Shown: piece after piece, positions 12,031 through 35,234 of the stretch
Layout: every line of letters begins with the position of its first letter
How positions within the stretch are numbered: the first letter of the stretch is position 1
Origin: a virus
DNA: 54,202 nucleotides
Virus record (IMG/VR): IMGVR_UViG_3300036859_000099
Location: 1 to 54,202 of that record
Direction: 5' to 3' (one strand)
Made by a program: the position numbers and the translations under genes
The notes under the pieces: generated by a model
Database searches by the model: none
Seen by the model: the letters and a program-made list of their open reading frames with translations, nothing else
What the model was told of the DNA's origin: nothing

Positions 12031-14418
12031 ATGGCAAACGATCAATCACTCTATGGTGCCGGCACCACCTCGGACGATACCCAGCGTGCGGCGCTCGCCG
12101 GCGGCCAGAAAAAGCCGGTAGCTGACAAGCCGAAGAAAAATGAGCTGGCAGCCAAGTACTGGCGTGAGATCGAGCGCTACAACCGCTCGGTCTCCGAATG
12201 GCACGAGGAAGGCGAGACCATCGAGAAGGTCTACCTCGATGAGATGCGCACCAGCAACGACACGCGCCGCTTCGCCCTGCTGTGGGCCAACATCGAGACG
12301 CTGAAGCCGGCTGTGCATGCCAAGCTGCCGACCGTGATGTGCGCGCGCCGCTACAAGGATCGCGATCCTGTCGGCCGCGTCGCCGCCGAACTGATGGAGC
12401 GTGCCACCAATACCTCGTGGGACCTGTATGGGGCCGACGAAACGTTCAAGATGATGCGCGACGACCGCCTGTTGCCGGGCCGTGGACAGGGCTGGGTGCG
12501 CTATGAGGCGGTGATCGAGCGCACCGAGGACGAGGTCGCCGTCGTCGACCCCGTGACCGGGGCCGAGACGATCGAGGTCCAGGTGCGTGAGAAGCTGAAG
12601 TCCGAGAAGGTGTGCAACGACTATGTGCACTGGCAGGATTTCGGCCACAACGTCTCGCGTACATGGCAAGAGGTGTGGCTGGTCTGGCGCATCGTCTACA
12701 AGACGCAGGAGGAGGCGATCGAGCGCTTCGGCTCCGAGAAGGCGTCGAAGCTCAAGTACAACGCCAAGGCGCCGATGAGCGCCGGGGCCTATGACGGCAC
12801 GGCCGCAGAGGAGGCAGAAGACAGCCGCTGCAAAATCTATGAGCTGTGGGACAAGATGCGCGGGCTCACGTCCTGGCTGGCCGAGGGGCAGAAAGACCAG
12901 TTTCTGGAATCGGGACCGCCGCCGATCGACTTCCGCAACGGCTTCCCGTGCCCGGAGCCCTGCTATGCCACCAAGACCAGCAAGCAGCTGATCCCGCGCC
13001 CCGACTATCGCTACTACCGGGATCAGGCCAAGGAGATTAACGACCTCACCGACAAGATCGGCCGACTGACGCAATGGCTGATCGTCAAGGGCTTCGTGCC
13101 CGGCGGCCCGTCGACCGTTGCCGACCCGATCGAGGAAGCGCTGCGCGACAAGACCAACGCCGAGCTGTTCGTGCAGGTGGACAGCTGGAAGGAGTGGACC
13201 GATCGCGGTGGCTCTAAGGGTTTGGTCGACTGGCTGCCGATCGAGGCCGTGGTCAAAGCTCTGCAGGCGGCCATCCAGGCCCGCAATCAGCTGATCCAGG
13301 ACGTGTTCCAGCTGACCGGCATCAGTGACATTCTCCGCGGTCAGACCGATCCCAACGAGACGTTGGGCGCGCAGGAGCTGAAGGCGCAGACCGGCTCGCG
13401 CCGGCAGAAGAACATCAAGGATGACATCGCCCGCTGGGGCAAGGACATGGCGCTGCTCAACGCCGAGGTGATCGCCGAGAAGTTCGAGCCGCAGTCGATC
13501 GCCGAGATCACCGGCTTCAAGTACGTGCCGACGCCGCCCATGCAGCCGATGCTGATGCTGCCAAGGCCGGGAGCGCCCATGGGCATGCCGACGCCAGGCA
13601 TGAGCCCGATGGGGCAGCCGGCTCCCGGCATGATGCCCATGCCTTCGCCCATGCAGCCTCAGCAACCCAATCCCATGATGGGCAACAACGGCGGCCCGCC
13701 CATGGACGACGAGGACGATAGCCTGACCTTCGGCGACGAGGTCATGGCCCTGCTGCGCAACGACAAGATGCGCTCGTTTCGCATCGACGTGGAGACCGAC
13801 CAGACCGGCCAGGCCGACGAGAACCTCGAGAAGCAGCGCCGCACCGAGCTGCTGAATGTGGTGGGCGGCTTCATGCAGAAGTCCGTGGAGGTTGTGGCTC
13901 AGGTTCCCGAGTTCGGCCCGGTCATCAAGGAAATGCTGATGATCGCCATGCGCGGGTTCAAGACCGGCAAGACGCTTGAAGACACGTTGGAGCGCGGCTT
14001 CAAGCAGGCGATGGCGTCTGCGCAAGCAGCGCGGCAGCAAGCTCAGCAGCAGGGCGACCCGAAGCTGATCGAGGCCAAGGCCGAGCACGCCCTGAAAGTC
14101 GAGACCGCCAAGGCCGACATGCAGCTGTCTCAACAAAAGCAGCAAGGCGATATGCAATTGGCTGCAAGAAAACAGCAAGCCGACACGCAATCGCAGATGC
14201 ACAAGCATCAACTCGACGCCTCGGCGCGAACTGAGGCGGCTAGAACCGATGCACAATTGGCGACACAAAAGCAACAGACCGACGCAATGTTGGAAGTGCG
14301 CAAACAAGACCTTGACGCGCAGGCCGAACACAGGCAGCAGAACCTAGCCGCCGCTGCTCGGGCGCGCGAGAACGCCGAGAAACTTCTCGACTCTCGCCAG
14401 TCGGGCACTGTGCAGTGA
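12031..14418 (+). CDS. portal protein, P22 gp1-like, with long helical tail
   Basis: The 795-residue protein starts with a portal-like core (NRSVSEWHEEGETIEKVYLD ... LLWANIETLKPAVHAKLP) resembling the P22-type portal. A Met/Pro/Gly-rich insert (about 500-560) follows. The C-terminal region (about 660-795) is a Gln/Ala/Lys-rich helix with repeated QQ/KQQ units, matching the long helical barrel of podovirus portals. Position after the large terminase supports the call. Confidence 0.85.
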   Translation: MANDQSLYGAGTTSDDTQRAALAGGQKKPVADKPKKNELAAKYWREIERYNRSVSEWHEEGETIEKVYLDEMRTSNDTRRFALLWANIETLKPAVHAKLPTVMCARRYKDRDPVGRVAAELMERATNTSWDLYGADETFKMMRDDRLLPGRGQGWVRYEAVIERTEDEVAVVDPVTGAETIEVQVREKLKSEKVCNDYVHWQDFGHNVSRTWQEVWLVWRIVYKTQEEAIERFGSEKASKLKYNAKAPMSAGAYDGTAAEEAEDSRCKIYELWDKMRGLTSWLAEGQKDQFLESGPPPIDFRNGFPCPEPCYATKTSKQLIPRPDYRYYRDQAKEINDLTDKIGRLTQWLIVKGFVPGGPSTVADPIEEALRDKTNAELFVQVDSWKEWTDRGGSKGLVDWLPIEAVVKALQAAIQARNQLIQDVFQLTGISDILRGQTDPNETLGAQELKAQTGSRRQKNIKDDIARWGKDMALLNAEVIAEKFEPQSIAEITGFKYVPTPPMQPMLMLPRPGAPMGMPTPGMSPMGQPAPGMMPMPSPMQPQQPNPMMGNNGGPPMDDEDDSLTFGDEVMALLRNDKMRSFRIDVETDQTGQADENLEKQRRTELLNVVGGFMQKSVEVVAQVPEFGPVIKEMLMIAMRGFKTGKTLEDTLERGFKQAMASAQAARQQAQQQGDPKLIEAKAEHALKVETAKADMQLSQQKQQGDMQLAARKQQADTQSQMHKHQLDASARTEAARTDAQLATQKQQTDAMLEVRKQDLDAQAEHRQQNLAAAARARENAEKLLDSRQSGTVQ

Positions 14419-14900
14419 AGGCGGTTCCCCTTACAACTGAGCGTCTCCGCGAAGTCCTGGATTATGATCCAGTGACGGGCATCTTCCGTTGGCGTGCGAA
14501 CCGCTTCCGCACGCGGATAGGGGAAGTGGCAGGCTACGACGCGCACGGCTATCTCAAGATCAGGATAGATCGCCGCAACTACCTGCTACACCGCCTTGCC
14601 TGGCTGTATGTGCATGGATGTTGGCCAGTGGGACAGATCGATCATCGCGATCTCAACCCAGCCAACAACGCCATAAGCAATCTCCGAGATGCGACTCACG
14701 CGCAGAACAAGCAGAACTCAAGAGGGCTGCGCGGAGACGGGCTGAAGGGCGTTCGGCTCAGTCACGGCAAGTGGCAGGCGTCGATAAGGGTCAACGGCCG
14801 TAGGCTTCACCTCGGGACCTTCAGCGCGCCTGAATCTGCTCGCGCCGCCTACGTCGCCGCGGCTTCCAAGCACCACGGCGAGTTTGCGAGGGTGTCATGA
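14415..14900 (+). CDS. HNH homing endonuclease with AP2 domain
   Basis: The 161-residue protein starts at a GTG overlapping the portal stop. Residues about 50-100 hold an HNH core (LLHRLAWLYVHG ... IDHRDLNPANNAISNL). The C-terminal part (about 110-155) is an AP2-type DNA-binding domain (GKWQASIRVNGRRLHLG). This domain pair is typical of mobile homing endonucleases in phages. It is freestanding between portal and the next head gene. Confidence 0.85.
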   Translation: MKAVPLTTERLREVLDYDPVTGIFRWRANRFRTRIGEVAGYDAHGYLKIRIDRRNYLLHRLAWLYVHGCWPVGQIDHRDLNPANNAISNLRDATHAQNKQNSRGLRGDGLKGVRLSHGKWQASIRVNGRRLHLGTFSAPESARAAYVAAASKHHGEFARVS

Positions 14901-15316
14901 GCAAGGTGCAGCCAGGCTCGTGGGTCTATGATCGTGATCTTCAGTCTCTCGTGCCGAAGTACGGGCGAAACTACTTCGAGCAGAACGAGAAGCGCTCGGA
15001 TTTGCCGTGCCCGGCGATCCGGCCAGACAGCATGCGCCCCATCAAGAGCATGGCCGATGGCCGGGTCTACGATGGCAAGTCGGCTTACTACAAGAGCGTG
15101 GCGCGCGCCGGTTGCGAGATCGTCGGCTTCGACAAGCGTTGGCAGGAGCACATCAAGGCCCCGCAGCCCTTCGGCGGCGAGAAGGCGCATGAAGCCGACC
15201 TTGTGCGCGACGTGAAGGCAGCTACCGAGATCGAGCAGTCCAAGGTTCCGAGCTACGGCCCGGAAGCCCGCCGACTGATGCGCAAACAGAAGCGTGCCGC
15301 GAGGTCGAGCAAATGA
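14897..15316 (+). CDS. conserved phage head-module protein
   Basis: The 139-residue protein begins in an ATGA overlap with the endonuclease stop, and its own stop overlaps the scaffold start. It contains IRPDSMRPIKSMADGRVYDGKSAYYKS, recalling small proteins between portal and scaffold in related phages. The C-terminus is basic. Function unknown. Confidence 0.65.
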   Translation: MSKVQPGSWVYDRDLQSLVPKYGRNYFEQNEKRSDLPCPAIRPDSMRPIKSMADGRVYDGKSAYYKSVARAGCEIVGFDKRWQEHIKAPQPFGGEKAHEADLVRDVKAATEIEQSKVPSYGPEARRLMRKQKRAARSSK

Positions 15317-16596
15317 TGCGTGACGACGACAAAGACAGGAACTATGACAGCGTCGCCGACGACGCTGCCGACGCCTATCGCGAGGTGATGGAGCGCACGC
15401 AATCCGAGCTGATTGCCCCAGCGCGCGCTGACCGGAGCGGCGAGTCGATCCAAGCCGATGATCCCGCTCCGGTCAGCAAGACGGCAGACCCCGCAACCCC
15501 TGCCGCCAATGGCAAGGAGCGCGCGCCGGCACCGGCGGCCCGCGACGACAACCGCGACGACAAGGGCCGCTTTGCCTCCAAGGACGGCCGGCCTGCCGAG
15601 CCCGCAGTCAAGCGGCCCGAGAAGGCCGCGGCACAGCCGACGCCGGTCGACAAGGCCAGCAAGCCGGAGGATCAAGCGAAGCCCGAGGCAACGCCGGTCG
15701 CCGGCGCGCCGCCGCCGTCGTTCTCCGTCAAGACCAAGGCCGAGTGGGACAAGCTGCCCGAGCACGTGCGTGCGGATATCGTCAAGCGCGAGACGGAGAT
15801 GCAGACCGGCCTCTCTGCGCTTCGCGACTACAAGGATCTGAAGCCGTGGTCGGATATGGCAGCCCAGCACGGCACCACCATTGGCAAGGCGCTGGAGCAC
15901 TACACCGGCCTCGAAAACATCATGCGCCGCGATCTGGCGCACGGCATGAAGATCATCGCCCAGAACTTCGGCTACAGCCAGGCGCAGGCTGCGGAGTTCT
16001 TCGGCAAGCTCGGCGCTCAGCTCGGCGGGGCCGCCCCCAACGGCCAGGCCGGGGCGGCCTCCCAGGCGCAGGGCCAGCCCGGCGTGGAGCAGGATCCGCT
16101 GCTGGAGGTGCTGCGGCCCATCCTCGGGCCCGTCATGCAGGAGATCAGTGGCCTCAAGAGCCAGCTGGCGACGCGCCAGAGCATGGAACGCAACGTCGCG
16201 ACCAAGACGCTCGGCGAGGCCATCGAGAAATTCTCCTCCGATCCCGCCAATAGGTTCTATGCGGACACCGAGGAAACCATCACGCGCCTTTTCGAGACGG
16301 GCATGGTGCCGCTGACCGGCAACCATCAGGCCGATCTCAAGAAGGCCTACGATCTTGCGCTCAGCATGAACCCTGAAATCCAACAGGCGCTCATCGACCA
16401 GCGACTCGCGGAAGCCAGGGAAGCCGAGCGGAAGAAGGAGCAAGAGGCAGCCGACAAGGCGAAGGCTGCCTCTCGCTCCATAACCGGCTCGCGGGCTCCC
16501 GGCACGGTCATCAAAGACCGTGAGGGGAGCACGCTGGGCTACGACGACATCGAGGCCGACGTGCGCAAAGCCTACCGCATGCACACGCAGGCCTGA
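15313..16596 (+). CDS. scaffolding protein (probable)
   Basis: The 427-residue acidic protein has a Pro/Ala-rich disordered N-terminal half (about 40-140) and a helical C-terminal half ending in charged coiled coil (EAREAERKKEQEAADKAKAA) and a final basic helix. Composition and position between portal and coat are typical of scaffolds that guide prohead assembly. Two start ATGs lie in tandem at 15313 and 15316. Confidence 0.75.
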   Translation: MMRDDDKDRNYDSVADDAADAYREVMERTQSELIAPARADRSGESIQADDPAPVSKTADPATPAANGKERAPAPAARDDNRDDKGRFASKDGRPAEPAVKRPEKAAAQPTPVDKASKPEDQAKPEATPVAGAPPPSFSVKTKAEWDKLPEHVRADIVKRETEMQTGLSALRDYKDLKPWSDMAAQHGTTIGKALEHYTGLENIMRRDLAHGMKIIAQNFGYSQAQAAEFFGKLGAQLGGAAPNGQAGAASQAQGQPGVEQDPLLEVLRPILGPVMQEISGLKSQLATRQSMERNVATKTLGEAIEKFSSDPANRFYADTEETITRLFETGMVPLTGNHQADLKKAYDLALSMNPEIQQALIDQRLAEAREAERKKEQEAADKAKAASRSITGSRAPGTVIKDREGSTLGYDDIEADVRKAYRMHTQA

Positions 16597-16614
16597 CCAC
16601 AGGAGACTACGGAG

Positions 16615-17604
16615 ATGCCGGCAAACCCGGACTTCGACGACATCGCCACCACGACCCTGCGCAACCGCTCGGGCAAGCTGGCCGACAACGCCACCGTCAC
16701 CGTGTCGTTTCTCGACCGTATGCGCCGCAAGGGCAAGGTGCGTCCCGCCGCCGGCGGCCGCTCGATCGTGCAGGAGCTTGAGGCAGCCCTGAACCCGAAC
16801 GGCGGCTGGTATGCGGGCCTCGACAACCTCAACACCAACGCGCACGAGCCGTTCACCGCGGCCGACTACGACTGGAAGCAGGCCTATGTGCCTTGCGTCT
16901 GGTCCGGCCTCGACAAGCTCAGGAACCAGGGCGAGTACGCCACCATCAACCTGATCACCTCGCGCGTGAAGAGCTGCGAGCATTCGCTGATCGATCTGGT
17001 TGCGCAGGCGGCGTTCTCGGACGGCACCGGCTTCGGCGGCAAGCAGATGCACGGGCTGGGGCTGTTCGTGGTCGCCTCGCCGACCACCGGCATCGTTGGC
17101 GGCATCGATCGCGCCGGCAACACCTTCTGGCGCAACCAGACGGCCACCGTCACCATGACGACCGGCATCAACATCGCTGCCACCAACCCGAGCAACTACC
17201 TCGCTGCGGTGAACAGCTTGTCGATCTCGTGCACGCGTGGCACCGACCGGCCCGATCTCTACGTCGCCGATGCGCTGCACTACAAGTTCTACCTGGAGTC
17301 CCTGCAGCCGCTGCAGCGCATCACCAACACCGACATGGCGGGGTTCGGCTTCACCGCGCTCAAGTACAACGGCGTGGGCGGCAACGCCGACTTCGTGCTC
17401 GACAACGGCTACTGCACGGCGTCGACGACGTTCGCTCTGAACACGGACTTCATCTATCTGCGTCCGCACCCCGATCGCGACTTCGTGCCGTTTGGTGGGG
17501 ACCGCGTTCCGGTCGACCAGGACGGGACGGTCCGGTTCGTCGGCTTCGCCGGCAACATGTGCGCGGCCAACCTCGCGCGTCAGGGCCGCCTGTTCCAGAA
17601 CTGA
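16615..17604 (+). CDS. major capsid protein
   Basis: The 329-residue protein follows a strong site (AGGAG and CGGAG) and sits just after the scaffold. The sequence has features of alphaproteobacterial podovirus coats: an N-terminal GGRSIVQELEAALNPNGGWYAGLD-like arm, a middle with FRRTDRPDL-like loop (CTRGTDRPDLYVADALHYKFY) and C-terminal strands (GNMCAANLARQGRL). An HK97-like fold is presumed. It forms the icosahedral shell. Confidence 0.85.
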   Translation: MPANPDFDDIATTTLRNRSGKLADNATVTVSFLDRMRRKGKVRPAAGGRSIVQELEAALNPNGGWYAGLDNLNTNAHEPFTAADYDWKQAYVPCVWSGLDKLRNQGEYATINLITSRVKSCEHSLIDLVAQAAFSDGTGFGGKQMHGLGLFVVASPTTGIVGGIDRAGNTFWRNQTATVTMTTGINIAATNPSNYLAAVNSLSISCTRGTDRPDLYVADALHYKFYLESLQPLQRITNTDMAGFGFTALKYNGVGGNADFVLDNGYCTASTTFALNTDFIYLRPHPDRDFVPFGGDRVPVDQDGTVRFVGFAGNMCAANLARQGRLFQN

Positions 17605-21838: not shown

Positions 21839-22018
21839 ATGCCGAGCAAGTCGCCAGCGCAGAAACACGTGATGGCCGGGATCGCCCACGGCTGGAAGCC
21901 TGATGATCCCGATTTGGCGAAAATCCCGATGTCAGTGGCCAAGGAATACAGCAAGGCGGATGAGAAAAATGCACTCCGTGAGCGCCTGAAGAAGGCGATG
22001 AGCCAGGAGAGCCGCTGA
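21839..22018 (+). CDS. small virion-module protein with C-terminal RxRLxxAM motif
   Basis: The 59-residue protein (MPSKSPAQKHVMAGIAHG...) starts two bases after the previous stop. The N-terminal half resembles a small protein common in alphaproteobacterial phages. Residues 47-54 (RERLKKAM) match the terminal motif found in six neighbouring virion-block proteins. The stop overlaps the ATG of the next gene. Function unknown. Confidence 0.65.
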   Translation: MPSKSPAQKHVMAGIAHGWKPDDPDLAKIPMSVAKEYSKADEKNALRERLKKAMSQESR

Positions 22019-22542
22019 TGCCTGCAGAACCCACGATGCGCGAGCGGCTGCTGGCCGCCATGAGCAACGAGGTCGGCTCACCGCCCGATCCGACCGCCAT
22101 CGGGCGCGCTCTCATGGCTGTCGGAATTTACCCATCCTCGCAGCTTCCATACGCGCCACAGAAGCCGGCCTGGATGCAGGAGCTGGCGCGCGGGGTTGGG
22201 CTGGCCACAATGGGCGCTCGCCCCTCAGCTGCGGCCGGTGGCCCGATGGTCGTGCCAAGAGGCATGGACCCCAGGCCAAATCCGGATCATATCGGCGCAA
22301 CGCCAGGAGCGGCAACGCTGTCTCGTTGGGGTGGAGTGGGCACCGTGGGCCGCTCTTCATGGCCCCGACGCGGGCTGGGCCCACTGGAGCCCGCCAATGC
22401 CAATGACGCTCCCTATCCCATGCGCACCATGGACCCGATGGTGACCCGCTTCCTACGCGCGCTCGATGGCGAGACTCCGCTCCATGTCCAATTGCCGAAG
22501 CTGACCGTGATCGAAGGCGGCCTGCCGCCGCGTAAGAACTAA
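22018..22542 (+). CDS. virion-module protein with N-terminal RxRLxxAM motif
   Basis: The 174-residue protein begins MPAEPTMRERLLAAMSNEV; residues 8-15 carry the shared motif. The rest is Pro/Gly/Met-rich and probably disordered, ending with a short ordered tail (VQLPKLTVIEGGLPP). No known family. Possibly an ejected or internal head protein, based on its block and tag. Confidence 0.6.
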   Translation: MPAEPTMRERLLAAMSNEVGSPPDPTAIGRALMAVGIYPSSQLPYAPQKPAWMQELARGVGLATMGARPSAAAGGPMVVPRGMDPRPNPDHIGATPGAATLSRWGGVGTVGRSSWPRRGLGPLEPANANDAPYPMRTMDPMVTRFLRALDGETPLHVQLPKLTVIEGGLPPRKN

Positions 22543-22562
22543 ACCGGCCATGAAGAAGCAAC

Positions 22563-23975
22563 ATGTCTGAACTCCGTGAACATACACCGACCATGCGCGA
22601 GCGGCTCCGGTCCGCCATGGGCAATCCGGTGGACGAGCTCCACCCGGCTAGGGTGCCGGCCGTGCTGGCAGCGGACTCATGGGACACAGGTGCCGAGCTA
22701 TGGCGCGCCGCCAAGCGGCTGGTCGAGGCCATGACCGAATCCAAGCCCGTCACCGAGCCCAAGGAGGTCAGCAAGGAGGAGTTCTTCCAATCGCGGCGGT
22801 CCACGCGCCAGTCGCTGGAGGAGGCGCAGCGCGAGGCCGAGAAGGAGGCCCGCGCCAGCCCGGAATACAAGGAGGCCATGGCCGAAAACCGGCGCAAGTC
22901 GGCTGAGGCCATGGTGCAGAAGCGCAAAGAGAGCGCGGAAGCGACCTGGCAGAAGAGCCAGGGCACGATCGGCGGAGAAGAGGAGCGCATCGGCCAGCAG
23001 TGGGATGCCGAGCTGGCCGACCGCGAGCGCCGGCGCGTCGAGGGGCTCAGCCGGTCCTTCAACGAGCGCCATCCAGCGGCCGCCGAGGCGATACCGATGG
23101 CGGGCCTGGGACTCACGGCCTTGGCCGGCCGGTTCGGGCTCAAGAAGCTAGCCGAGAAGGGAGGCGATATTGCCGCCGACGCAGTGAAGGCGCGCGGGGC
23201 CAAGGACTTTCAGGGTTTGGCTGAGCAAATCCTGAAAGCGCAGCAGTTCAAGAACGTAACCAGGCCGCTCGGCACCGGGCTGACCGTGCTGGGTGCGCCC
23301 ATGATAAACGTGGAATCGCGTGCGCTGCCCGATCAGTTCGACCGCCTCATGCTGCCGCCGGAGGCGGGCGCACGGCAGAAGGCAGAAGAGCGGCAGTCCG
23401 ACCCGATGCTGCAGGCTAAGGAGTCGGTGTGGCCCTACATCGGCGGTCTCGCGGCTGTCATGACTGGCGCCAAGCTGCCGAAGCCGGTGGGCAGCCCTGG
23501 ACCCGATATCGCGGCCGTGACCGGCTACGCGAAGGGGATGCCAAAAGACATCCAAGCGCAGGACCTAGCCATCAAGCTGGCGCAGAAGGACCGGCGGCTC
23601 ATGAAAGCCATGGGCGGAGAAACTCCACCACTGCCGCCCCCCACTGGGAGCGCACCGACAGGCCCAGCGTCAGCGGGCCAAATTCCTGCCCAAGCACAGC
23701 TACCAGCAGCGCCAGCACCCCCGCCCAGCGGCCCCATGGGCGCGGCAGGTACCATCCCCGCCAGCCCCGCCGCAGTTCCACAATTGGCCGGCCCGACCAC
23801 TGCAGCTGGTCCCACTGCAGGTCGTCCTCCTCGAGGCGCTCCACTTTCACGGCCGACATCTCCTGAAAGGTTGGACCTGGAGGCTCAGCTGCAACTCTTG
23901 CCGCCCGAGCAGCGACTGCCGTTCCTGCTCTCCAAGCTGGGCCTGCCCAATGGGCCCAATGTAGGAGGCCAATAG
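22563..23975 (+). CDS. internal virion/ejection-type protein with N-terminal RxRLxxAM motif
   Basis: The 470-residue protein starts MSELREHTPTMRERLRSAMGN, with the shared motif at 12-19. Residues 65-180 form a charged helical region (SLEEAQREAEKEARASPEYK). A hydrophobic patch (AIPMAGLGLTALAGRFGLKK) follows, and a Pro/Ala-rich disordered tail. Amphipathic plus disordered composition fits proteins ejected with DNA. No enzyme motif is seen. Confidence 0.6.
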   Translation: MSELREHTPTMRERLRSAMGNPVDELHPARVPAVLAADSWDTGAELWRAAKRLVEAMTESKPVTEPKEVSKEEFFQSRRSTRQSLEEAQREAEKEARASPEYKEAMAENRRKSAEAMVQKRKESAEATWQKSQGTIGGEEERIGQQWDAELADRERRRVEGLSRSFNERHPAAAEAIPMAGLGLTALAGRFGLKKLAEKGGDIAADAVKARGAKDFQGLAEQILKAQQFKNVTRPLGTGLTVLGAPMINVESRALPDQFDRLMLPPEAGARQKAEERQSDPMLQAKESVWPYIGGLAAVMTGAKLPKPVGSPGPDIAAVTGYAKGMPKDIQAQDLAIKLAQKDRRLMKAMGGETPPLPPPTGSAPTGPASAGQIPAQAQLPAAPAPPPSGPMGAAGTIPASPAAVPQLAGPTTAAGPTAGRPPRGAPLSRPTSPERLDLEAQLQLLPPEQRLPFLLSKLGLPNGPNVGGQ

Positions 23976-24007
23976 CCCGTGGTCAACCGTGAACAGAGGG
24001 TCGGACC

Positions 24008-24715
24008 TTGAGCCTGCTGACCATCGTTCAGGAGACGGCCTCGGATCTGGGGCTCAGGCAGCCTGACGTCGTCGTCGGCTCGACCGATCTGACGGCGCAA
24101 ATCCTGTTCCGCCTTGCCAATCAGGTCGGCAAGCACCTGATGCGCTATCACGACTGGCAGGCGCTGGTCGTCGCGAAAACCTTCACCAGCCTGGCGACGC
24201 AGGAGCAGACCAACGCGCTGCCGACCAACGACTACGACCGCATGATCTACAATGCCGAGGTCTGGAACCGCACCAGCAACCAGCGCTTCGTTGGCCCTAC
24301 GCCGCAGCGCTACTGGGCATACCTTCTCAACGGGGCCATCACGGCTGGCTTCCCCGGCTACTGGCGCATCCTCGGCGATGACCTGAACATCCTCCCCGTG
24401 ATGACGGCGGGGCAGACGATCGCCTTCGAGTACATCTCCAAACGCTGGGCGGCGTCCTCGGGCGGCACCGCACAAGACGCCTTCATGGCCGACACCGACA
24501 CCACGCTGCTGGATGAAGAGCTGTTCGTGCTGGAGATGGTATGGCGCTTCCGCAAGAGCCGCGGCTTCGGCCAGTACGCGGAAGACATGGAGACGGCCGA
24601 GCGCGAGAAGGAGAAGCGGGCCTCCCGCGATCGCGGCACTGGCAGGATCAGGCCGGAGAACGACAACCGCGACCAGCCGCCGCCGCCGATGTGGTCGGGG
24701 AGCATCACGGTATAA
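24008..24715 (+). CDS. head-tail connector/adaptor (P22 gp4-like)
   Basis: The 235-residue protein starts at a TTG with GAGGG upstream. It begins with a helical LLTIVQETASDLGLRQP segment and a RLANQVGKHLMRYHDWQALV region that is typical of podovirus adaptor proteins binding the portal. A beta-rich middle (TFTSLATQEQTNALPTNDYD) and charged tail follow. Position before the gp10-like gene supports the assignment. Confidence 0.72.
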   Translation: MSLLTIVQETASDLGLRQPDVVVGSTDLTAQILFRLANQVGKHLMRYHDWQALVVAKTFTSLATQEQTNALPTNDYDRMIYNAEVWNRTSNQRFVGPTPQRYWAYLLNGAITAGFPGYWRILGDDLNILPVMTAGQTIAFEYISKRWAASSGGTAQDAFMADTDTTLLDEELFVLEMVWRFRKSRGFGQYAEDMETAEREKEKRASRDRGTGRIRPENDNRDQPPPPMWSGSITV

Positions 24716-24718
24716 CTG

Positions 24719-25405
24719 ATGGCTGACGATCTGACCACGGCTGACGTGCTGGCGAGGATGCCGAAAGAGAACGGCTTCACTGCGCTTCTGCGTGCCATGG
24801 CGGAGCGCATTCCAGCCAACACAGAAAACCGTCTCTCCATGCTCAACATGGCCAAGGGCGGGCTGAACTCAGCCGCCAACTGGCTGGATTGGAAGCCGGA
24901 AATCGGACCAGATACGCTGGCGCCGCTGGGCGTCAGCGCCATTTCGGCATTGGCCCGGCCTGGGCGTGTCCCGCATCAACATTTCGATCTTACGCCCACC
25001 GAGCGCATGACAGGTTCCGGCAATCCGTATGGCCCTGTCGAAATGGCCTATGTGCCGAACAAAGATGGCGTGTATCTCGGCGGCATTCAGACGGACCAAG
25101 ACAAGCGTGGCCGCGGTTATGGACGGGCGGCCATGGAGCAATTCCTTGAAGAGACCGATGCTGCCGGCAAGCCAGTCGGACTTACATCACTAGATGATCC
25201 GCGACTCTGGAAGTTCTATGCTTCGTTGGGTTTCAAAAATTCGAGTGGGCGTATTTGGGAGCGTGATGCGCGACCACCCAGAAGCGAAACCATGCTCTTC
25301 GCCGACCCGTCCCGCGCCTCCCTCTCCGGCACCATCGTCAACGACGCCGACACTCGTGAGCGCCTGAAGCGTGCGATGAGCCTGGATCGAGGGGACACGC
25401 TATGA
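24719..25405 (+). CDS. GNAT acetyltransferase-like protein with C-terminal RxRLxxAM motif
   Basis: The 228-residue protein has a helical N-terminal part, then a GNAT core: a strand (GGIQTDQDKR), the acetyl-CoA loop RGRGYG at 130-135 followed by helix AAMEQFLEE, and a last strand (LWKFYASLGFKNSSG). The extreme C-terminus carries RERLKRAM (213-220). A tagged acetyltransferase between connector and tail genes may be packaged in the virion (inference). Substrate unknown. Confidence 0.7.
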   Translation: MADDLTTADVLARMPKENGFTALLRAMAERIPANTENRLSMLNMAKGGLNSAANWLDWKPEIGPDTLAPLGVSAISALARPGRVPHQHFDLTPTERMTGSGNPYGPVEMAYVPNKDGVYLGGIQTDQDKRGRGYGRAAMEQFLEETDAAGKPVGLTSLDDPRLWKFYASLGFKNSSGRIWERDARPPRSETMLFADPSRASLSGTIVNDADTRERLKRAMSLDRGDTL

Positions 25406-27003
25406 CCCGCACCGCCGTGGCAGGGACGAGGGCCAGGGCCGGCTACCGCGTGGTGGGCGCGCCCATGACCGCGCGCGGCGTCTCGATCCCCGCTCCGGTT
25501 GGCGGCTGGGATGCGATCAGCCCGCTGGCGGCCATGCCCGAGACCAACGCCGTCACTCTGGAAAACACCTTCCCGCAGCCTGGCTATGTCGAGATCAGGA
25601 AGGGCCACAAGCGCCACATCCTGACGGGGGCGGCGGCCATCGAGAGCCTGATGCCCTATCACGGCCTCACGGCGGCCGGCGATCGCCTGTTCGCGGCCAC
25701 CACGACGGTCGTCTCCAACGTCACGGCGTCGGCCTCCACAACGGCCTCAATTGCCGTGTCCGGTCTCAGCAATGCGCGCTGGCAGCACGTCAACCACTCG
25801 ACCTCGGGTGGCAACTTCCTGTGGATTTGCAACGGCGCCGACGCCCCGCGCATGTATAACGGCACGACGTGGGCGACGGCGAGCGTGGTCGGCATCACCG
25901 CGACCAGCATTATCAACGCGGCCGTGTTCAAGAACCGCCTCTGGCTGACACGCACCGGACAGATATCGCCGGCCTACCTCAACACCGACAGCGTGCAGGG
26001 CACCGCCACGGTGTTCGATCTGACGGGCGTGTTCGACAAGGGCGGCTTCCTGCAAGCCGTCGGCGCCTGGTCGCTCGATGCCGGCGCCGGCCCGGACGAT
26101 CTGATCGCCTTCGTTACCAGCCGCGGCGAGGTGGCGGTCTATAGCGGCACCGACCCGGCCACCAACTTCACCCTGAAGGGCGTGTTCGAGATGGGTGCGC
26201 CGATCGGTCGGCGCTGCCTGACCAAGGTCGGCGCCGACCTGGTCGTCATCTCGATCGATGGCGTGCTGCCGCTGTCGAAGGCGCTGATCACCGATCGCGC
26301 CTCGGCCATCACCGAAGCCCTGACCAAGGCCATCCAGCCGGTGATGAACCAGTCGGCGCGCGACAACGGCGCCAAGTTCGGCTGGCAGCTGATCGGCTAT
26401 CCGCGTGGCACGCGCGCCATCCTGAACGTGCCGCTCAGCGAGGGCGTCGAGCAGGAGCAGTACGTCATGAATACGGTGACGGGCGCCTGGTGCCGCTTCA
26501 ATGGCGAGAATGCCAACTGCTGGGCGGTGTTTCAGGACAAGCTCTACTACGGCGGCAACAATGGCCGCGTGATCGAGGCCGACAGCCAAGGCTACGACGA
26601 TGACGGCTCGATCGCGGTCGATATCGAGACGGCCTTCAACTACATCGGCAACCGCGGGCGACTGAAGAATTTCACGATGTGCCGCGCGCTGCTGACCACC
26701 GACGGCCAGGTGCTGCCGGGGCTCGGCCTCAACGTCGACTTCGCGCGTCAGCAGGAGGTCGGCGCCACCACGTTCGAGTCCGGCTCATCCGATCTGTGGG
26801 ACGTTGGTCTGTGGGATCAAGGCGTGTGGCCCGAGGTCAACCGCATCGTCACCGACTGGACCAGCGTTGCCGGCATCGGCTACTGCGCCGGCATCCGCAT
26901 GACGGCGACCATCACGCCCGGCGTCGGCGTGGACCCCAGCCAGGCCCTGGTGCTGGCCATCAACGGCTTTGATGTGCTGGTGCTTGATGGAGGCTTCCTG
27001 TGA
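25402..27003 (+). CDS. tail stopper/needle-interface protein (P22 gp10-like)
   Basis: The 533-residue protein starts in an ATGA overlap. It is beta-rich with recurring blade-like segments (GGWDAISPLAAMPETNAVTLENTFPQ; LFAATTTVVSN; WVYSG-like loops; YYGGNNGRVIEADSQGYDDDG). This pattern and its place after the adaptor match podovirus gp10-type hub proteins that seal the portal. No enzyme motif is seen. Confidence 0.72.
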   Translation: MTRTAVAGTRARAGYRVVGAPMTARGVSIPAPVGGWDAISPLAAMPETNAVTLENTFPQPGYVEIRKGHKRHILTGAAAIESLMPYHGLTAAGDRLFAATTTVVSNVTASASTTASIAVSGLSNARWQHVNHSTSGGNFLWICNGADAPRMYNGTTWATASVVGITATSIINAAVFKNRLWLTRTGQISPAYLNTDSVQGTATVFDLTGVFDKGGFLQAVGAWSLDAGAGPDDLIAFVTSRGEVAVYSGTDPATNFTLKGVFEMGAPIGRRCLTKVGADLVVISIDGVLPLSKALITDRASAITEALTKAIQPVMNQSARDNGAKFGWQLIGYPRGTRAILNVPLSEGVEQEQYVMNTVTGAWCRFNGENANCWAVFQDKLYYGGNNGRVIEADSQGYDDDGSIAVDIETAFNYIGNRGRLKNFTMCRALLTTDGQVLPGLGLNVDFARQQEVGATTFESGSSDLWDVGLWDQGVWPEVNRIVTDWTSVAGIGYCAGIRMTATITPGVGVDPSQALVLAINGFDVLVLDGGFL

Positions 27004-27497
27004 TCACGCGCGCCAACAGCGAGGACGAGAAGCTGGCGCTGGTGGCCTACCTCGCCAGCAAGATCGGCACATCTCCGGCAACTCTTGTCGGTCAAATGCC
27101 CTACGAGATCGTGGCCACCACGGACAGGGCCGGCAAGCCGAACGGCGCCGTCATGTACATCAACTGGCGCGGCTCGACCATCGAGATGGCGTGCGCCGGC
27201 GAGCCCGGCTGGCTGACGCGCGCGCACCTAGCAGAGTTGTTCCGCTATCCCTTCGAGCAGATGCGGTGCTGGACGGTGCTGACGTTGGTGCGGCGGCGCA
27301 ATGCACGCGCCCGTCAATTCAACGTCAAAGTCGGTTTCACGGAGCTGTGCGTGGTCCGCAACGGCCCCGACAAGTCCGAGGATTCCATCCTGTACGGCAT
27401 GAGCCGCCCTGAATGCCGCTGGCTTCCATGCGCCGAGGCAATCAATCGGCAATCGGCAATCGCGAACGGAGCCCACGCCAGCAGAGGAGTGCCCTGA
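27000..27497 (+). CDS. second GNAT-type acetyltransferase
   Basis: The 165-residue protein begins at a GTG overlapping the previous stop. The C-terminal part (ARQFNVKVGFTELCVVRNGP ... SILYGMSRPECRWLP) matches the end of small phage GNAT proteins, commonly found beside gp10-like genes. It lacks a strong RxxGxG loop (RRRNARARQF lies there), so activity is uncertain. Its last 4 bases overlap the CTG start of the next gene. Confidence 0.65.
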   Translation: MITRANSEDEKLALVAYLASKIGTSPATLVGQMPYEIVATTDRAGKPNGAVMYINWRGSTIEMACAGEPGWLTRAHLAELFRYPFEQMRCWTVLTLVRRRNARARQFNVKVGFTELCVVRNGPDKSEDSILYGMSRPECRWLPCAEAINRQSAIANGAHASRGVP

Positions 27498-28513
27498 CAA
27501 TCGGTAAATCCGCACCAAAGGCGCCCGATCCCTATCAGACCGCAGAGGCTCAGACGCAGTCCAACATCAGGACCGCGCAAGAGCAGCAGCGGCTCGGCAT
27601 GATGGGTCAGGAGAACGACCTGTACTCGACCCAGTACGTCACCGACCCGTCGAGCCCGTCCGGCTATCGCGCCGTCACCCATCTGTCGCCCGAGCAACAG
27701 GCACTGCTGGGGCAGAGCCAAGACATCCAGGGGTTGTACGGTGACATCGCCGGCCAGCAACTGGGCCGCGTTGGCGATGTCATGGCCACGCCGTGGGACA
27801 TGTCGGCGGCGCGCGGCACCGAGATCAGCGACATGCAGAGGACGTTCCTCGATCCGGTTTGGCAGGGCCGGGAGGAAGCGCTGAAGACGGACCTGATGAA
27901 CCGGGGCATCCGCGAGGGCAGCGACCAGTGGGCCGATGCTACCCGCGACTTCGAGTCCGGCCGCTCCAGCGCCTATGATCGCATGTTCCTCGACGCCTAC
28001 ACCAAGGGCAACGAGGCGGCGCTCACCGAGCGCAACCAGCCGATGGCCGAGCTGGCGGCCCTGCGCGGCGGGTACATGCCGCAGACGCCGGGCACGCCGC
28101 AGGTGCAGACGCCGTCGCCTGGCGTGTCGCCGACTGATGTCTCAGGTCTCGTGCAGAACAACTATAACCAGGAAATGCAGCAGTACAACGCTGGCATGGG
28201 CGGTCTGTTCGGGCTCGGCTCGGCGGCATTGGGCGGTTGGGCCAAGGCTGGTTTCCCAGGTGCCTCCGCAGCTATCGGCATGCTGCCATTCTCAGACCGC
28301 CGCGTGAAGACGGATATCCGCAAGATCGCCGACGATCCGCGCGGCTGGGGCGTCTATCTGTTCAGGTACATCGTCGACAAGCTCAAGGGGCCGGCTCCAT
28401 GGCAGCTCGGCTACATGGCCGACGAGGTGGCGCGCGTGCGTCCGGACGCCGTCATGATCATGCCCGGCTACGGCACGCGCATGGTCGACTACGGCGCGCT
28501 GGCTGAGGCATAG
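27494..28513 (+). CDS. tail-associated protein with C-terminal S74-like chaperone domain; probable CTG start
   Basis: The homology-like N-terminus (TIGKSAPKAPDPYQTA) begins directly after CTG at 27494. That CTG overlaps the previous TGA (CTGA) and lies 4 bases after GAGGAG. Upstream ATGs (27413, 27428) lack binding sites and would lie in another gene. About 339 residues: a helical Gln-rich body, a hydrophobic glycine-rich patch (GGLFGLGSAALGGWAKAGF) and a C-terminal S74-type domain (FSDRRVKTDIRKI ... QLGYMADEVARVRPDAV) with the Ser-Asp and Lys of the self-cleaving release domain. Confidence 0.7.
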   Translation: MTIGKSAPKAPDPYQTAEAQTQSNIRTAQEQQRLGMMGQENDLYSTQYVTDPSSPSGYRAVTHLSPEQQALLGQSQDIQGLYGDIAGQQLGRVGDVMATPWDMSAARGTEISDMQRTFLDPVWQGREEALKTDLMNRGIREGSDQWADATRDFESGRSSAYDRMFLDAYTKGNEAALTERNQPMAELAALRGGYMPQTPGTPQVQTPSPGVSPTDVSGLVQNNYNQEMQQYNAGMGGLFGLGSAALGGWAKAGFPGASAAIGMLPFSDRRVKTDIRKIADDPRGWGVYLFRYIVDKLKGPAPWQLGYMADEVARVRPDAVMIMPGYGTRMVDYGALAEA

Positions 28514-28522
28514 GAGATGGTC

Positions 28523-30145
28523 ATGGCTTTCGGTGACATGCTCGGGGTCGACAGCGGCGACAGCGGCTCTTTCACGCCGGAGTCCTTGAAGCAGCGCCGG
28601 CGGTTGGCCGAGGCCATGCTGCAGACGGGCATGGACATCAGTCCAATCCAGAGCCCGTGGCAGGGCCTCGCCCGCATGGCCAACGCCGGGATTGGCGGCT
28701 ACGAGCTCGGCGCAGCGGAGCGCGCGGAGAAGGCGGAAAAGGCGAAGACCACGCAGACGCTGCTCGGTCTGCTGGGCGATGACAAGGCCGCCGCGCCAGC
28801 CAGTGCGGCGCCGACGGCTACGGCGGCCGCCGGGCCCAGCGATTTCACGGCGTGGCTGAAGCAGAAGGAAGGCTTCAATCCGAGCGCCTATGGAGATTTC
28901 AAACAGACCAGCATCGGCTATGGCACCAGGGCGCAGCCTGGCGAGACTTCCATCTCGCCAGAGGAGGCCGAGAAGCGCCTTGGCGTCGAGCTGAGTAAGG
29001 CGCGCCAGCTGGTGCAGGGCTTCGGCGTCAAGCTGTCGCCCAAGCAGGAGGATGCGCTCACCGACCTGACCTACAACTCCGGCACCAAGTGGATGAGCGA
29101 GGGCCTTGGCGCGGCGGTCAAATCCGGCAACTGGCCGGTCGCCCGGCAACTGTTCGAGAAGTACATCAACGCTGGCGGCAAGCCGCTGCCCGGCCTTGCT
29201 TCGCGGCGCAAGGAGCTATCGCCGTGGCTGCTTGATACCGGCGGAGCTCCGGATGTGGAGACGCCCTTTGGCACCGTGACGGCGGCCGGCACGACCGAGG
29301 CACCGGCAGAGGCCATGCCGGCCGCGCTCGGTGGGTCGCCCGCGGCCGCAGCGGCTGCGGGCCAGCCAGCGCCTAGCGCCACGGGAAGGCCCGCCGCCAT
29401 CTCGCCGCGGCCGCTGCCGCCCGAGACAGCGGCGCAGATCAGAACGCTGCTGGCCAACCCAGCCACACAGGCGCTCGGGTTGCAGATGTTGCAGGAGGCG
29501 CGCAAGGCCGCGATTCCCAATTACGAGTTCAAGAGCGCGGGAGACAACGCCTTCCGCTTTGATCCGCGCACGGGGCAAGCGGAGCCGATCACGGGCGCTA
29601 GCGGCGGCAAAGCGCCACCCGGCTTCCGGTGGAACCAGGACCACACACAGCTCGAGGCGATTCCGGGCGGGCCAGGAGAGCATATTTCAAGCGAGGCGGC
29701 CGGCCGCCTGGCCATGATGCAAACGGCCATGCCGGGCGTCGAAGAGGCGCGCAAGGTGTTCCTGAAAAGCTGGGGGCCGAAGGAGTTGCTGCAGAGCCAA
29801 TTCAGCGGCGAGCATGACCCAGCCTTCATCACGGGCGAGATCGGACGCGCGCAGCGCTCCGTCAGGATAGCCATCGAGGCCACGTTGCGCGTGATGACGG
29901 GCGCAGCAGCTCCCGAAAGCGAGGTGCAGCGCTATGAGGCCATGTTCATGCCTACCGCAAGGGACAACATCCAAAGCGCTACGCAGAAAATGGATGCGCT
30001 GCAGAGCTTCATGAGCAATGCTCAGGAGCTGTCTACCCGCGGGCGTAGACCTGCAGAAGGGTCGCAGCCGCCGGGCGCAAAGCAGCCTGGAGCGCCGGCG
30101 CCAAAACGCGTCAAATACAATCCCGAAACCGGAGAGCTGGAATGA
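28523..30145 (+). CDS. virion protein with T4-type lysozyme domain and RxRLxxAM motif
   Basis: The ATG at 28523 is 6 bases after GGAG (the ATG at 28517 is too close). The 540-residue protein has the shared motif RRRLAEAM at 25-32, then a GH24 muramidase domain (about 106-240) with Glu116 (KQKEGF), Asp125 and Thr129 (GDFKQTSIGYGT). A Pro/Ala linker and long helical C-terminal part follow, ending KYNPETGELE. It probably enters the cell envelope during DNA delivery to cut peptidoglycan locally. Confidence 0.8.
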   Translation: MAFGDMLGVDSGDSGSFTPESLKQRRRLAEAMLQTGMDISPIQSPWQGLARMANAGIGGYELGAAERAEKAEKAKTTQTLLGLLGDDKAAAPASAAPTATAAAGPSDFTAWLKQKEGFNPSAYGDFKQTSIGYGTRAQPGETSISPEEAEKRLGVELSKARQLVQGFGVKLSPKQEDALTDLTYNSGTKWMSEGLGAAVKSGNWPVARQLFEKYINAGGKPLPGLASRRKELSPWLLDTGGAPDVETPFGTVTAAGTTEAPAEAMPAALGGSPAAAAAAGQPAPSATGRPAAISPRPLPPETAAQIRTLLANPATQALGLQMLQEARKAAIPNYEFKSAGDNAFRFDPRTGQAEPITGASGGKAPPGFRWNQDHTQLEAIPGGPGEHISSEAAGRLAMMQTAMPGVEEARKVFLKSWGPKELLQSQFSGEHDPAFITGEIGRAQRSVRIAIEATLRVMTGAAAPESEVQRYEAMFMPTARDNIQSATQKMDALQSFMSNAQELSTRGRRPAEGSQPPGAKQPGAPAPKRVKYNPETGELE

Positions 30146-30363
30146 CCCTATCGAGATGGGAAGTCTGGGGAGTGCTCGTGCTGGGTGCGGTGCTGCTGTC
30201 GGCTGTCGTCCTTCTCGAAAGAGACCTACGTGCCGAGCGCAAGCGGACATTTGTCGCATGCGAGCAGGTGCCGAAGCGCGATGGGGCTAAAGCAACGAGG
30301 CGACTGCGCTATGACGCCGTCACAGGCAACCTCATCAATGTCGAGACAGGCGAGATCGAGTGA
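30142..30363 (+). CDS. small single-pass membrane protein of the ejection module
   Basis: The 73-residue protein starts in an ATGA overlap. It has one N-terminal membrane segment (WGVLVLGAVLLSAVVLL) and a short charged tail ending RYDAVTGNLINVETGEIE. That end resembles the C-terminus of the lysozyme protein just upstream (KYNPETGELE). The role may be as a channel component or a regulator of the ejection proteins. Confidence 0.6.
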   Translation: MTLSRWEVWGVLVLGAVLLSAVVLLERDLRAERKRTFVACEQVPKRDGAKATRRLRYDAVTGNLINVETGEIE

Positions 30364-32714
30364 TGCCGATCGAAATCGACGCCCCTGATGGCAGCATTGC
30401 CGAGTTCCCGGATGGCACTCCGCCTGATGTGATGAAGGCTGCCTTGGCTAAGAGGTATCCCAAGCCGCTGACGACAGCCGAGACGCTTGCCGATGTCGGT
30501 GACCAAGCCATCAGGGGCTTATCCAAAAGCATTGTCGGCACAGCGACGGCTCCGTACCGCTTGCTCAAGGCCGCATCCGATGAGGCGGCGGCACGCATGC
30601 ATGCCCAAGGCTACAAGTCCATCGTGCTGCCGGATGAAGCGACGCTGCCGGCGGTCGAGGAGATGGAGCTGTACAAGCCGTTTCTGAAACAGCCGGAACC
30701 GGCGAGCGTCGCTGGACGGTATGCACGGGCAGCCGGAGAGGCGGTGGGGGCCAGCGCCATCCCAGGAGCGGCCCTCACTGGTGCGGCCCCCAGGCTGGCC
30801 GCCATGGCCCCCACAACCCTTCCCAGGGCGATAGGGCAGGCAGTAGCCGCTCCTATCGCGGCGAGGCCTGGCGCGGCCGCGGTGGCCGATGTGGTCGCAT
30901 CCACTGGCGCCGGGGTGGCACAGCAAGGCGCAGAGGAGGCTGGCTTCGGCCCGCCGGGACAAGCCGTGGCCGGGATTGTGGGGGCAGTGACGCCGCTGGC
31001 ATTGGCCGGCGCCGCCCGCCGGCTGACGCGCGCTGCCAATGAGGCGGCCGCCGGCCGCGCGCCGCATGCGCAGATGGCGCAGCGCCTGGCAGCCGAGCCC
31101 GGCACCGGGGCGGGACCGACGCTGGAGGAGGTCGCAGAGAGCGTTGCCGGCGGCGCCAATCGCCAAGCCCTCGATATCCTGGGTCAGGAGATGGTGCGCA
31201 ACGAGGGGCGCGCGGGCGCGGCCGCGACAGCCACCATCGACCGGCTCATGGGCGAGCAGGGCATCACCAGGGCGACGGCTACCGGCAGGGTGCGCGAGCT
31301 TCTGCGCTCACAGGAGGGAAGCGAGCTACTGTTCGCCGAGCAGCCGGCAGTGGCGCGGGCCATCACCGAGACGCGTGGCACCCGGCCAGCGCAGCGCGGG
31401 CCGGCGGGCATCCGCGAGCTGGAGGCGCAGACGGGCCGCGTCGAGGAGGCGCGCACGCAGCGCGAGCTGGAGCGCATTGCCAATGCCTTCACGGGTGACA
31501 GCGCGGCCACCGTGCGCAACGCCGTCGCCGGCCGCATGGAGGCGCTGAGAGAGCAGCTGCGGCAGCGCTTCTCGGCACAGCCGTTCGCGCCGGGCACCAT
31601 GCAGGACGCCGATGCGCTCGTGCAGCGCATGACGCGGGCGGCACAGGCCGAATATGCTGCGACCTATGGTGGTCCGGGGCGCGCGGCAAACGTCAACTAT
31701 GGTGTGCTGCACGGACTGCTGCAGCGCATGGTGGACCGGCACCTGAACCGCATGGCGGGCCGGTCCGGAGAGCAGGCGGACGCCCTGCGGCGCGCCATCG
31801 ACGGTCTGTTCATCGAGCTTCCCACCGGGCAGCGCGTCGTCATGCCGTCGCTGCAGATGGCCCAGGACATGCGCGGCGGCATCCGCGGCATGATCAGCGG
31901 TGCCGAGCGGTCGGGCCGGAGCGACATCGTCAATACGCTGCAGCCGCTCTATAGCGACATGACCCGCATCATGGAGCGGGCCTCGCCGTCGTGGGCGCGG
32001 GCCAACAGGCGATGGGCCGACATGCGCATCGGTGAGCGTGCGCGGGAGCTCGGCGAGGCGTTCGCAGAGCGCGCCGGGCCACGCTACCGGGCAGACCTGA
32101 TCGAATTCAGGCAGCTGGCACCGGAGATGCAAGACCTCGTGCGCATCGAGTTCGCGCAGCGCCTGGTCGACAAGGTCGACAACGCCGGCGGCACGCATGA
32201 CCTGGCCAAGCTGTTCGATAAGCCGGCCATGCGGGCGGCGGTGCGCGATCTGTTCGGCAACGAGGCTTCGGTGGAGCTGTCGCGGCTCATCCGCGACAAC
32301 CAGGTCGCGACCAAGAGCTACCGCATGATGGGCGGCTCGCCGACCCAGCCGCGCCAGCAGCTGGAAGCCATGGCAACCGGAGACATTGATCTGCTGGCGG
32401 CCATCGACCAGGCCAGCGTCAGCAACTTCCGCAACGCCGCGGTGCGCTGGGTTGCCAACAAGCTGAAAGAGGGCCGCAACCGCGAGCTGGCCGGGATCGC
32501 CACGACGCCGATGCGCAATGTTCCGGCGGTGGCCGAGCACCTGGAGCGCATGCGTCGGGCGAATGCGCGCATGCGCGATGCGCAGCAGCCTCGCTATCCG
32601 CAACTGGCGCCAGCAGGCGCGCTGGCCCCGGCAACGCTGCCATACGAAGGGCAGCAGGCCGAAAGAACGCCGCGCCGACGCCTGCAGGACGCGATGAGAG
32701 GAAGCGGGCAATGA
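30363..32714 (+). CDS. large internal virion/DNA-ejection protein
   Basis: The 783-residue protein starts IEIDAPDGSIAEFPDGTPPDVMKAALAKRY, a module often found at the N-terminus of phage ejection proteins. A long Ala/Gly-rich hydrophobic region (about 120-225) that could span membranes follows, then helices (about 230-750) and a C-terminal RRRLQDAM motif (771-778). Length, composition and place fit a P22 gp16/gp20- or T7 gp16-type internal protein. The GTG at 30360 is an alternative start. Confidence 0.75.
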   Translation: MPIEIDAPDGSIAEFPDGTPPDVMKAALAKRYPKPLTTAETLADVGDQAIRGLSKSIVGTATAPYRLLKAASDEAAARMHAQGYKSIVLPDEATLPAVEEMELYKPFLKQPEPASVAGRYARAAGEAVGASAIPGAALTGAAPRLAAMAPTTLPRAIGQAVAAPIAARPGAAAVADVVASTGAGVAQQGAEEAGFGPPGQAVAGIVGAVTPLALAGAARRLTRAANEAAAGRAPHAQMAQRLAAEPGTGAGPTLEEVAESVAGGANRQALDILGQEMVRNEGRAGAAATATIDRLMGEQGITRATATGRVRELLRSQEGSELLFAEQPAVARAITETRGTRPAQRGPAGIRELEAQTGRVEEARTQRELERIANAFTGDSAATVRNAVAGRMEALREQLRQRFSAQPFAPGTMQDADALVQRMTRAAQAEYAATYGGPGRAANVNYGVLHGLLQRMVDRHLNRMAGRSGEQADALRRAIDGLFIELPTGQRVVMPSLQMAQDMRGGIRGMISGAERSGRSDIVNTLQPLYSDMTRIMERASPSWARANRRWADMRIGERARELGEAFAERAGPRYRADLIEFRQLAPEMQDLVRIEFAQRLVDKVDNAGGTHDLAKLFDKPAMRAAVRDLFGNEASVELSRLIRDNQVATKSYRMMGGSPTQPRQQLEAMATGDIDLLAAIDQASVSNFRNAAVRWVANKLKEGRNRELAGIATTPMRNVPAVAEHLERMRRANARMRDAQQPRYPQLAPAGALAPATLPYEGQQAERTPRRRLQDAMRGSGQ

Positions 32715-32953
32715 AGCTTCCCCCCATCACCAAATCTCCAGTGCCGCCCTACGATCCACTGGCCAAACAATTCGCCTCCGAGGAACTACGGCTGATCCTG
32801 GAGAAAGACCGTCTGCAAAGGGTCGGTCGATTGCCCGCCTTCTCCCGTCCGCTGGTGCCGCTCGAGGAACGGGAGAACATCGGAGCGCTCACTGGGCGCC
32901 AGCGCCTGTTGGACGCGATGATGCAGTCGGACAAGCAAATAGGGAAGGATTAG
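32711..32953 (+). CDS. small virion-module protein with C-terminal RxRLxxAM motif
   Basis: The 80-residue protein overlaps the previous stop. It is Pro-rich at the N-terminus, helical in the middle (EELRLILEKDRLQRVGRLP), and carries RQRLLDAM at 63-70 near its end. No known family. Confidence 0.6.
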   Translation: MKLPPITKSPVPPYDPLAKQFASEELRLILEKDRLQRVGRLPAFSRPLVPLEERENIGALTGRQRLLDAMMQSDKQIGKD

Positions 32954-34156: not shown

Positions 34157-34223
34157 TGTGCCCTCCGTCGGTTTGATCCGTTATGCGTACCACGAGACGG
34201 ATCGAACATCAAGGGAGAGCGAA

Positions 34224-35039: not shown

Positions 35040-35233
35040 TGCCGAGAAACGATCCAGACAAGCCGCTCTACGCCAGCTGGAGCAGTATGCGCGCTCGCAC
35101 ACACTGCAGCCGTGGACACGAGTTCACAGAGGCCAACACCAGAATAACCCCGGATGGCTGGAGGAACTGCCGCGCATGCCATGCCGCCAAGATGCGGCGT
35201 CGCGCGGCTGCCAGAAGAGCAATGGGAGGCTGA
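35039..35233 (+). CDS. miniature HNH remnant (zinc module only)
   Basis: This 64-residue product starts in a GTGATG overlap with the tail gene stop. Residues 9-20 (PLYASWSSMRAR) match the beginning of the 280-residue endonuclease (PLFVTWQQMRYR). The sequence then jumps to a match with that protein's last zinc module (RTHCSRGHEFTEANT ... CRACHAAKMRR). It looks like an internally deleted copy without the HNH centre. It may be a remnant or a small DNA-binding protein. Confidence 0.6.
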   Translation: MPRNDPDKPLYASWSSMRARTHCSRGHEFTEANTRITPDGWRNCRACHAAKMRRRAAARRAMGG

Positions 35234-35234
35234 C

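Follow-up and report, generated by a model that had tools for sequence, protein, structure and literature searches.

A terminal R-x-R-L-x-x-A-M motif on seven proteins of an Mx8-like podovirus may be a capsid address label

The shells of encapsulins, which have the HK97 fold, take up unrelated cargo by way of short terminal peptides, although encapsulins are cellular compartments, unlike a phage prohead, and resemble the present case by description only. Among phages, the capsid targeting sequence (CTS) of T4 is an N-terminal peptide that is cleaved off by the prohead protease; it places one short terminal peptide on diverse internal proteins, which it directs to the prohead core. The T4 internal proteins form a diverse defence set and are conserved in the CTS only (PMC3012670). 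The other relevant precedents concern scaffold proteins. The C-terminus of the 80alpha scaffold binds coat, and CpmB of SaPI1 has a nearly identical C-terminal helix that binds the same coat site (PMC5644958). In P22, a helical element at the scaffold C-terminus likewise binds coat (PMC9962691; PMC12005531).

The motif described here, R-x-R-L-x-x-A-M, would resemble the T4 CTS in function and SaPI1 CpmB in its sequence logic. Given these two systems, the view of the first-pass annotation that no signal like it has been described was too strong; we found no description of such a terminal loading signal in the open papers searched, which does not prove its absence. Both parallels are partial. 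The T4 CTS is N-terminal throughout, whereas the motif occurs at either end of its proteins and so falls outside a strictly N-terminal class. CpmB is a second type of protein with the terminal helix of the scaffold, as the RERL-tagged proteins may be, the likeness in our case being one of sequence, to the scaffold profile of the family. However, CpmB acts as a rival scaffold, changing the size of capsids, and is not cargo; it is also a single protein with demonstrated binding, whereas there are several here, recognised from their sequences.

The window, i.e. the whole stretch of DNA that was analysed, is a 54.2-kb virus record, which we assign to the Mx8-like podoviral lineage (described in PMC10386132) on the basis of homologous virion genes in order. 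Its virion module runs TerL-portal-scaffold-MCP-tube-gp10-GNAT-S74-ejection, with p46 between portal and scaffold. The head genes that concern us are:

12031..14418, + strand: portal protein (phrog_12082), the alternative candidate docking partner
14897..15316, + strand: small p46-type protein (phrog_21669), with a scaffold-like helix DLVRDVKAATEI at 15197-15232
15313..16597, + strand: scaffold protein, with a C-terminal helix DIEADVRKAYRM at 16546-16581 and an N-terminal copy SVADDAADAYRE at 15349-15384
16615..17604, + strand: major capsid protein, recognised by position and by homology to the capsid genes of relatives; presumed docking partner

Of the relatives found, two are nearest: a Rhodomicrobium prophage (L022/L134) and an uncultivated virus (L043/L125). 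The core virion genes stand in the same order in both and are mostly ~42-67% identical to theirs (scaffold ~42%; MCP and S74 ~46-49%; terminase, tube and gp10-like stabilization proteins ~62-64%). Several further genes were observed in and around this module. Between portal and p46, at 14415-14900, lies an HNH/AP2-like endonuclease gene, recognised by eye. Inside the head block, at 18218-20727, a glycosyltransferase-like gene (by eye) and a methyltransferase-like gene (weak profile hits) form a pair that is kept in the closest relatives. Downstream, the neighbouring genes at 34158-35039 and 35154-36044 are similar to each other, and L134 also has two copies matching both.

The seven copies of the motif reported by the first-pass annotation are all present at their coordinates on the + strand, in the following genes:

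21839..22018, + strand: 59-aa MPSKS-type small protein (phrog_16759), C-terminal tag RERLKKAM at 21977-22000
22018..22542, + strand: 174-aa orphan protein, N-terminal tag RERLLAAM at 22039-22062
22563..23975, + strand: 470-aa orphan protein, N-terminal tag RERLRSAM at 22596-22619
24719..25405, + strand: 228-aa GNAT acetyltransferase-like protein (PF00583), C-terminal tag RERLKRAM at 25355-25378
28517..30145, + strand: 542-aa lysozyme-domain ejection protein (PF00959), motif RRRLAEAM at 28595-28618 in an N-terminal segment conserved in the family
30360..32714, + strand: 784-aa probable internal virion protein, C-terminal tag RRRLQDAM at 32673-32696
32711..32953, + strand: 80-aa protein, C-terminal tag RQRLLDAM at 32897-32920

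A six-frame scan of the whole 54,202-nt window returned exactly these 7 matches and no eighth. Every copy lies 5-26 residues from the nearer protein end (5, 7, 11, 8, 26, 5 and 10 residues in gene order), at the N-terminus in three proteins and at the C-terminus in four, which bears out the terminal placement that had been claimed; under a uniform-position model, the chance that all seven would fall so near the ends is ~4e-8. Shuffled proteins yielded a mean of 0.04 motif matches (maximum 2 in 2000 trials). When terminal segments were searched in an unbiased manner for any pattern of five fixed residues, R.RL..AM was the top pattern in the window, with a count of 5 because the gene set used had missed two small tagged genes. 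The same search found no comparable terminal pattern in 33 other stretches of related phages, and no analogous private terminal motif in other phages clearly exceeded the shuffled expectation. The motif is thus a genuine pattern. Its bearers are otherwise unrelated, as had been stated, since BLAST similarity among them is confined to the tags and to compositionally simple stretches, and the GNAT (PF00583) and lysozyme (PF00959) assignments both hold. By contrast, the looser version QRLALMRAM, proposed for the protein at 32959, matches only with an inserted residue and was rejected.

The 174-aa protein (22018..22542) has no family match, the 470-aa protein (22563..23975) no matches in phage records and the GNAT protein no relatives in viral contigs; an AF2 model of the latter made without an alignment was unusable (mean pLDDT 38). 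Pfam scans of the window's tagged proteins gave no match to an LPD domain. At their ends, the lysozyme (28517) and the 784-aa protein (30360) match phiM5 internal virion proteins whose annotation records detection in particles; among the seven, only these two have matches of this kind. In the 784-aa protein, it is the first 32 aa that match phiM5 gp31, its N-terminus (window 30360 onward) reading PDGSIAEFPDGTPPDVMKAAL and the internal virion protein gp31 lying at L141 20001 onward. A different ending is shared by the lysozyme C-terminus (KRVKYNPETGELE), a small protein at 30142-30363 (NVETGEIE) and phiM5 gp29 (YKFNIETGELE; L141 18904-19995), and this NVETGEIE-like ending may be another terminal module of internal proteins.

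Located in the virion block, most of the tagged genes are accessory relative to both closest relatives: six of the seven have no match in either, the exception being the lysozyme. In both relatives, gene 21157 is followed directly by gene 24008 and then gp10, so that the tagged genes at 21839-23975 and the GNAT gene at 24719 represent insertions; neither relative has a match to the tagged genes at 30360 and 32711. The first-pass annotation had named conservation in homologues as the check on its proposal, and here the outcome in part goes against it: relatives do not conserve the motif, as they lack most of the tagged genes. Distant and close relatives alike have the lysozyme copy at most, besides scattered chance-like matches.

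An indication of what the tags may do comes from the scaffold. The scaffold C-termini of 50 relatives have in common a helix-like segment, S-[IL]-R-E-A-[LI]-[KR]-R-A-[MF]. A profile of these ends was trained without the window and scored over 17,823 positions in window proteins, where the four RERL tags ranked 2 (21977), 12 (25355), 20 (22039) and 26 (22596) and the other three 124, 180 and 515. In reverse, when a profile of six tags is run against 4,850 termini of relatives, the scaffold C-termini stand out (p=7e-16, from homologous, non-independent members). Since family members are not independent, whole families were ranked as well. With the RERL tags, scaffold C-termini come top of 44 family ends and p46 C-termini next; with all six tags, scaffold C-termini take second place. 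First place among 44 ends has a probability of ~0.02 before counting the comparisons tried, a modest significance that supports the likeness and does not prove it. Because four copies resemble the end helix of relatives' scaffolds, the pattern may be a capsid address label. As a counterpoint to scaffold mimicry, capped amphipathic helices resemble each other generally, and the RERL tags fit the scaffold profile of the family and not, closely, the window's own scaffold helix, DIEADVRKAYRM not being of the RERL type.

For the three R[RQ]RL tags, the N-terminus of the ejection protein is a better match than the scaffold, and it is here that the main rival to scaffold mimicry arises. The tag would then be a packaging signal copied from the helix (RRRLAEAM) at the N-terminus of the lysozyme ejection protein, docking on the ejection assembly, the scaffold column or the portal, not on coat. 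In the lysozyme, RRRLAEAM opens a long N-terminal segment kept across the family's ejection proteins; this copy is therefore not an isolated tag, and it alone among the seven is conserved in relatives. Moreover, P22 ejection proteins are thought to attach to the scaffold column at its inner end (PMC12005531). A profile of ejection N-termini from 27 relatives ranks 28595, 32897 and 32673 at 1, 2 and 7 of 17,947, and 21977 at 30, but this comparison is partly circular because the lysozyme copy is among the seven strings that define the motif. On the same profile, tag 22596 reaches only rank 329 and tag 25355 only rank 436, and the tags lack the conserved continuation of the ejection proteins, QGMDTSPIxSPWQG. 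On balance, we consider this origin rather unlikely.

Net charge separates the tags from the head-protein helices, a point against scaffold mimicry. Over 13 residues, all seven tags are positive (+1 to +4), as compared to -1 for the window scaffold helix and -2 for the p46 helix. Conceivably, the tags could be short basic amphipathic helices that bind DNA or another internal component, with their terminal placement reflecting accessibility only. A positive charge in 7/7 tags agrees with this. However, nonspecific DNA binding needs neither strict L, A and M positions nor a resemblance to scaffold ends, and no matches to known DNA-binding families were found, making this a very improbable explanation.

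The scaffold-like helix is itself repeated within the phages of this family. AF2 predicts that the window scaffold ends, after a low-confidence linker, in an isolated helix (residues 413-426), an arrangement that would be like the coat-binding hook of P22. The P22 element is, however, a helix-turn-helix, whereas this family has a single terminal helix and, in many relatives, a second copy at the N-terminus. Such a copy, in the first 60 residues, places about half of the scaffolds within the top 5% of N-termini. The window (YDSVADDAADAY and YDDIEADVRKAY) and L081 (STEDAVKKAMEK and STSDAVKKAMRQ) provide examples of such end pairs; similar helix-like segments lie near both scaffold ends in the window, L081, L071, L134, L006 and L014. 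No account of such a double-ended helix turned up in our search of open papers, which again does not establish its absence. A third instance is p46 (~111 aa), encoded just before the scaffold, for which about 60 homologues were seen in relatives. In most relatives, its C-terminus is a scaffold-like segment, with a median scaffold-profile score of 10.6 vs -5.8 for other C-termini (p=2e-34, among homologous members). A separate p46 C-terminal profile obtained by motif discovery locked onto a VEVGND stretch and was discarded.

The same likeness is evident from profile-free comparisons. Scaffold N and C ends score 25.3 within the same phage vs 20.7+/-0.56 between phages, and p46 C-termini vs scaffold C-termini 23.8 vs 19.5+/-0.63. 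Of the two controls, the scaffold middle has a smaller effect of the same sign (18.6 vs 16.6+/-0.47), and p46 N-termini have no within-phage similarity effect. A likeness of the helices within each phage is the pattern that would be expected from a common binding partner, with shared composition and ancestry contributing as well.

At the DNA level, the tags fall into near-identical pairs: 21977/25355 and 22039/22596 agree at 21/24 nt and 32673/32897 at 20/24 nt, and the first pair belongs to a 36-bp, 86% match between 21972-22008 and 25351-25386. Therefore, some copies may be duplications, an origin that would fit the scaffold and ejection-protein readings alike. Taken further, these same pairs would be in line with a functionless coding cassette copied among neighbouring genes by recombination, or with a recombination footprint. 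We regard this as decidedly improbable, as five residues are fixed even though identity between pairs is only 12-19/24, and the copies are in frame at both N- and C-termini of intact genes. It is also at odds with the relative L044, where an unrelated protein has a similar tag at its N-terminus. The L044 gene (L044:9222-10184) lies between p46 and scaffold, and its product starts MPTLRERLAASLLDED and continues into an LPD domain (LPD23, PF18838, E=2.6e-23). LPD domains are named for polyvalent proteins, and phage polyvalent proteins are predicted to be packaged (PMC5512222). Besides L044, no tagged phage was found among viral contigs with the PT[ML]RERL pattern. L140 and L173, which emerged from scans with TMRERLxxAM and PT[ML]RERLxx[AS], proved unrelated upon examination, and the other matches to these patterns in viral contigs are mostly short frames or internal. 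Across 397 genomes of the Rhodomicrobium order, there was one pattern match, close to where an unrelated reading frame ends.

Based upon these features, a docking function of the terminal motif is likely, and scaffold mimicry is possibly the mechanism for the RERL copies, being the best supported. The proposal that the motif sorts proteins into the prohead via scaffold or portal gains from the resemblance of the RERL tags to a scaffold terminal helix that recurs in p46 and at the scaffold N-end, and loses from the lack of motif conservation in relatives. The reading that we favor, tentatively and at somewhat less than an even chance, is as follows. Terminal R-x-R-L-x-x-A-M would be a docking helix that brings accessory proteins into the prohead, with at least four RERL copies imitating the short amphipathic helix present at both scaffold ends. 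As imitations of this helix, the tags would share its partner, and the cargo would therefore be recruited together with scaffold, most likely at the inner face of the coat protein. Once the scaffold departs, the cargo would remain inside and subsequently be ejected with the DNA. Whether a single modular docking helix serves a lineage of P22-like phages as a general prohead address, common to scaffold ends, p46 and, in this phage, at least four, perhaps six, accessory proteins, is a broader proposition that we consider doubtful at present.

For phages outside T4, it is poorly known how the non-structural proteins carried into the host are selected. If the pattern acts as an address by which unrelated proteins enter the capsid during its growth, about a dozen added codons would suffice to turn a newly acquired gene into virion cargo, which would explain a rapid conversion of accessory genes to this role. 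Such a short tag would likewise make injected proteins recognisable from sequence and supply a small, portable loading peptide. The recurrence of the helix at the scaffold ends and in p46 throughout the family stands on its own as a testable statement on capsid assembly.
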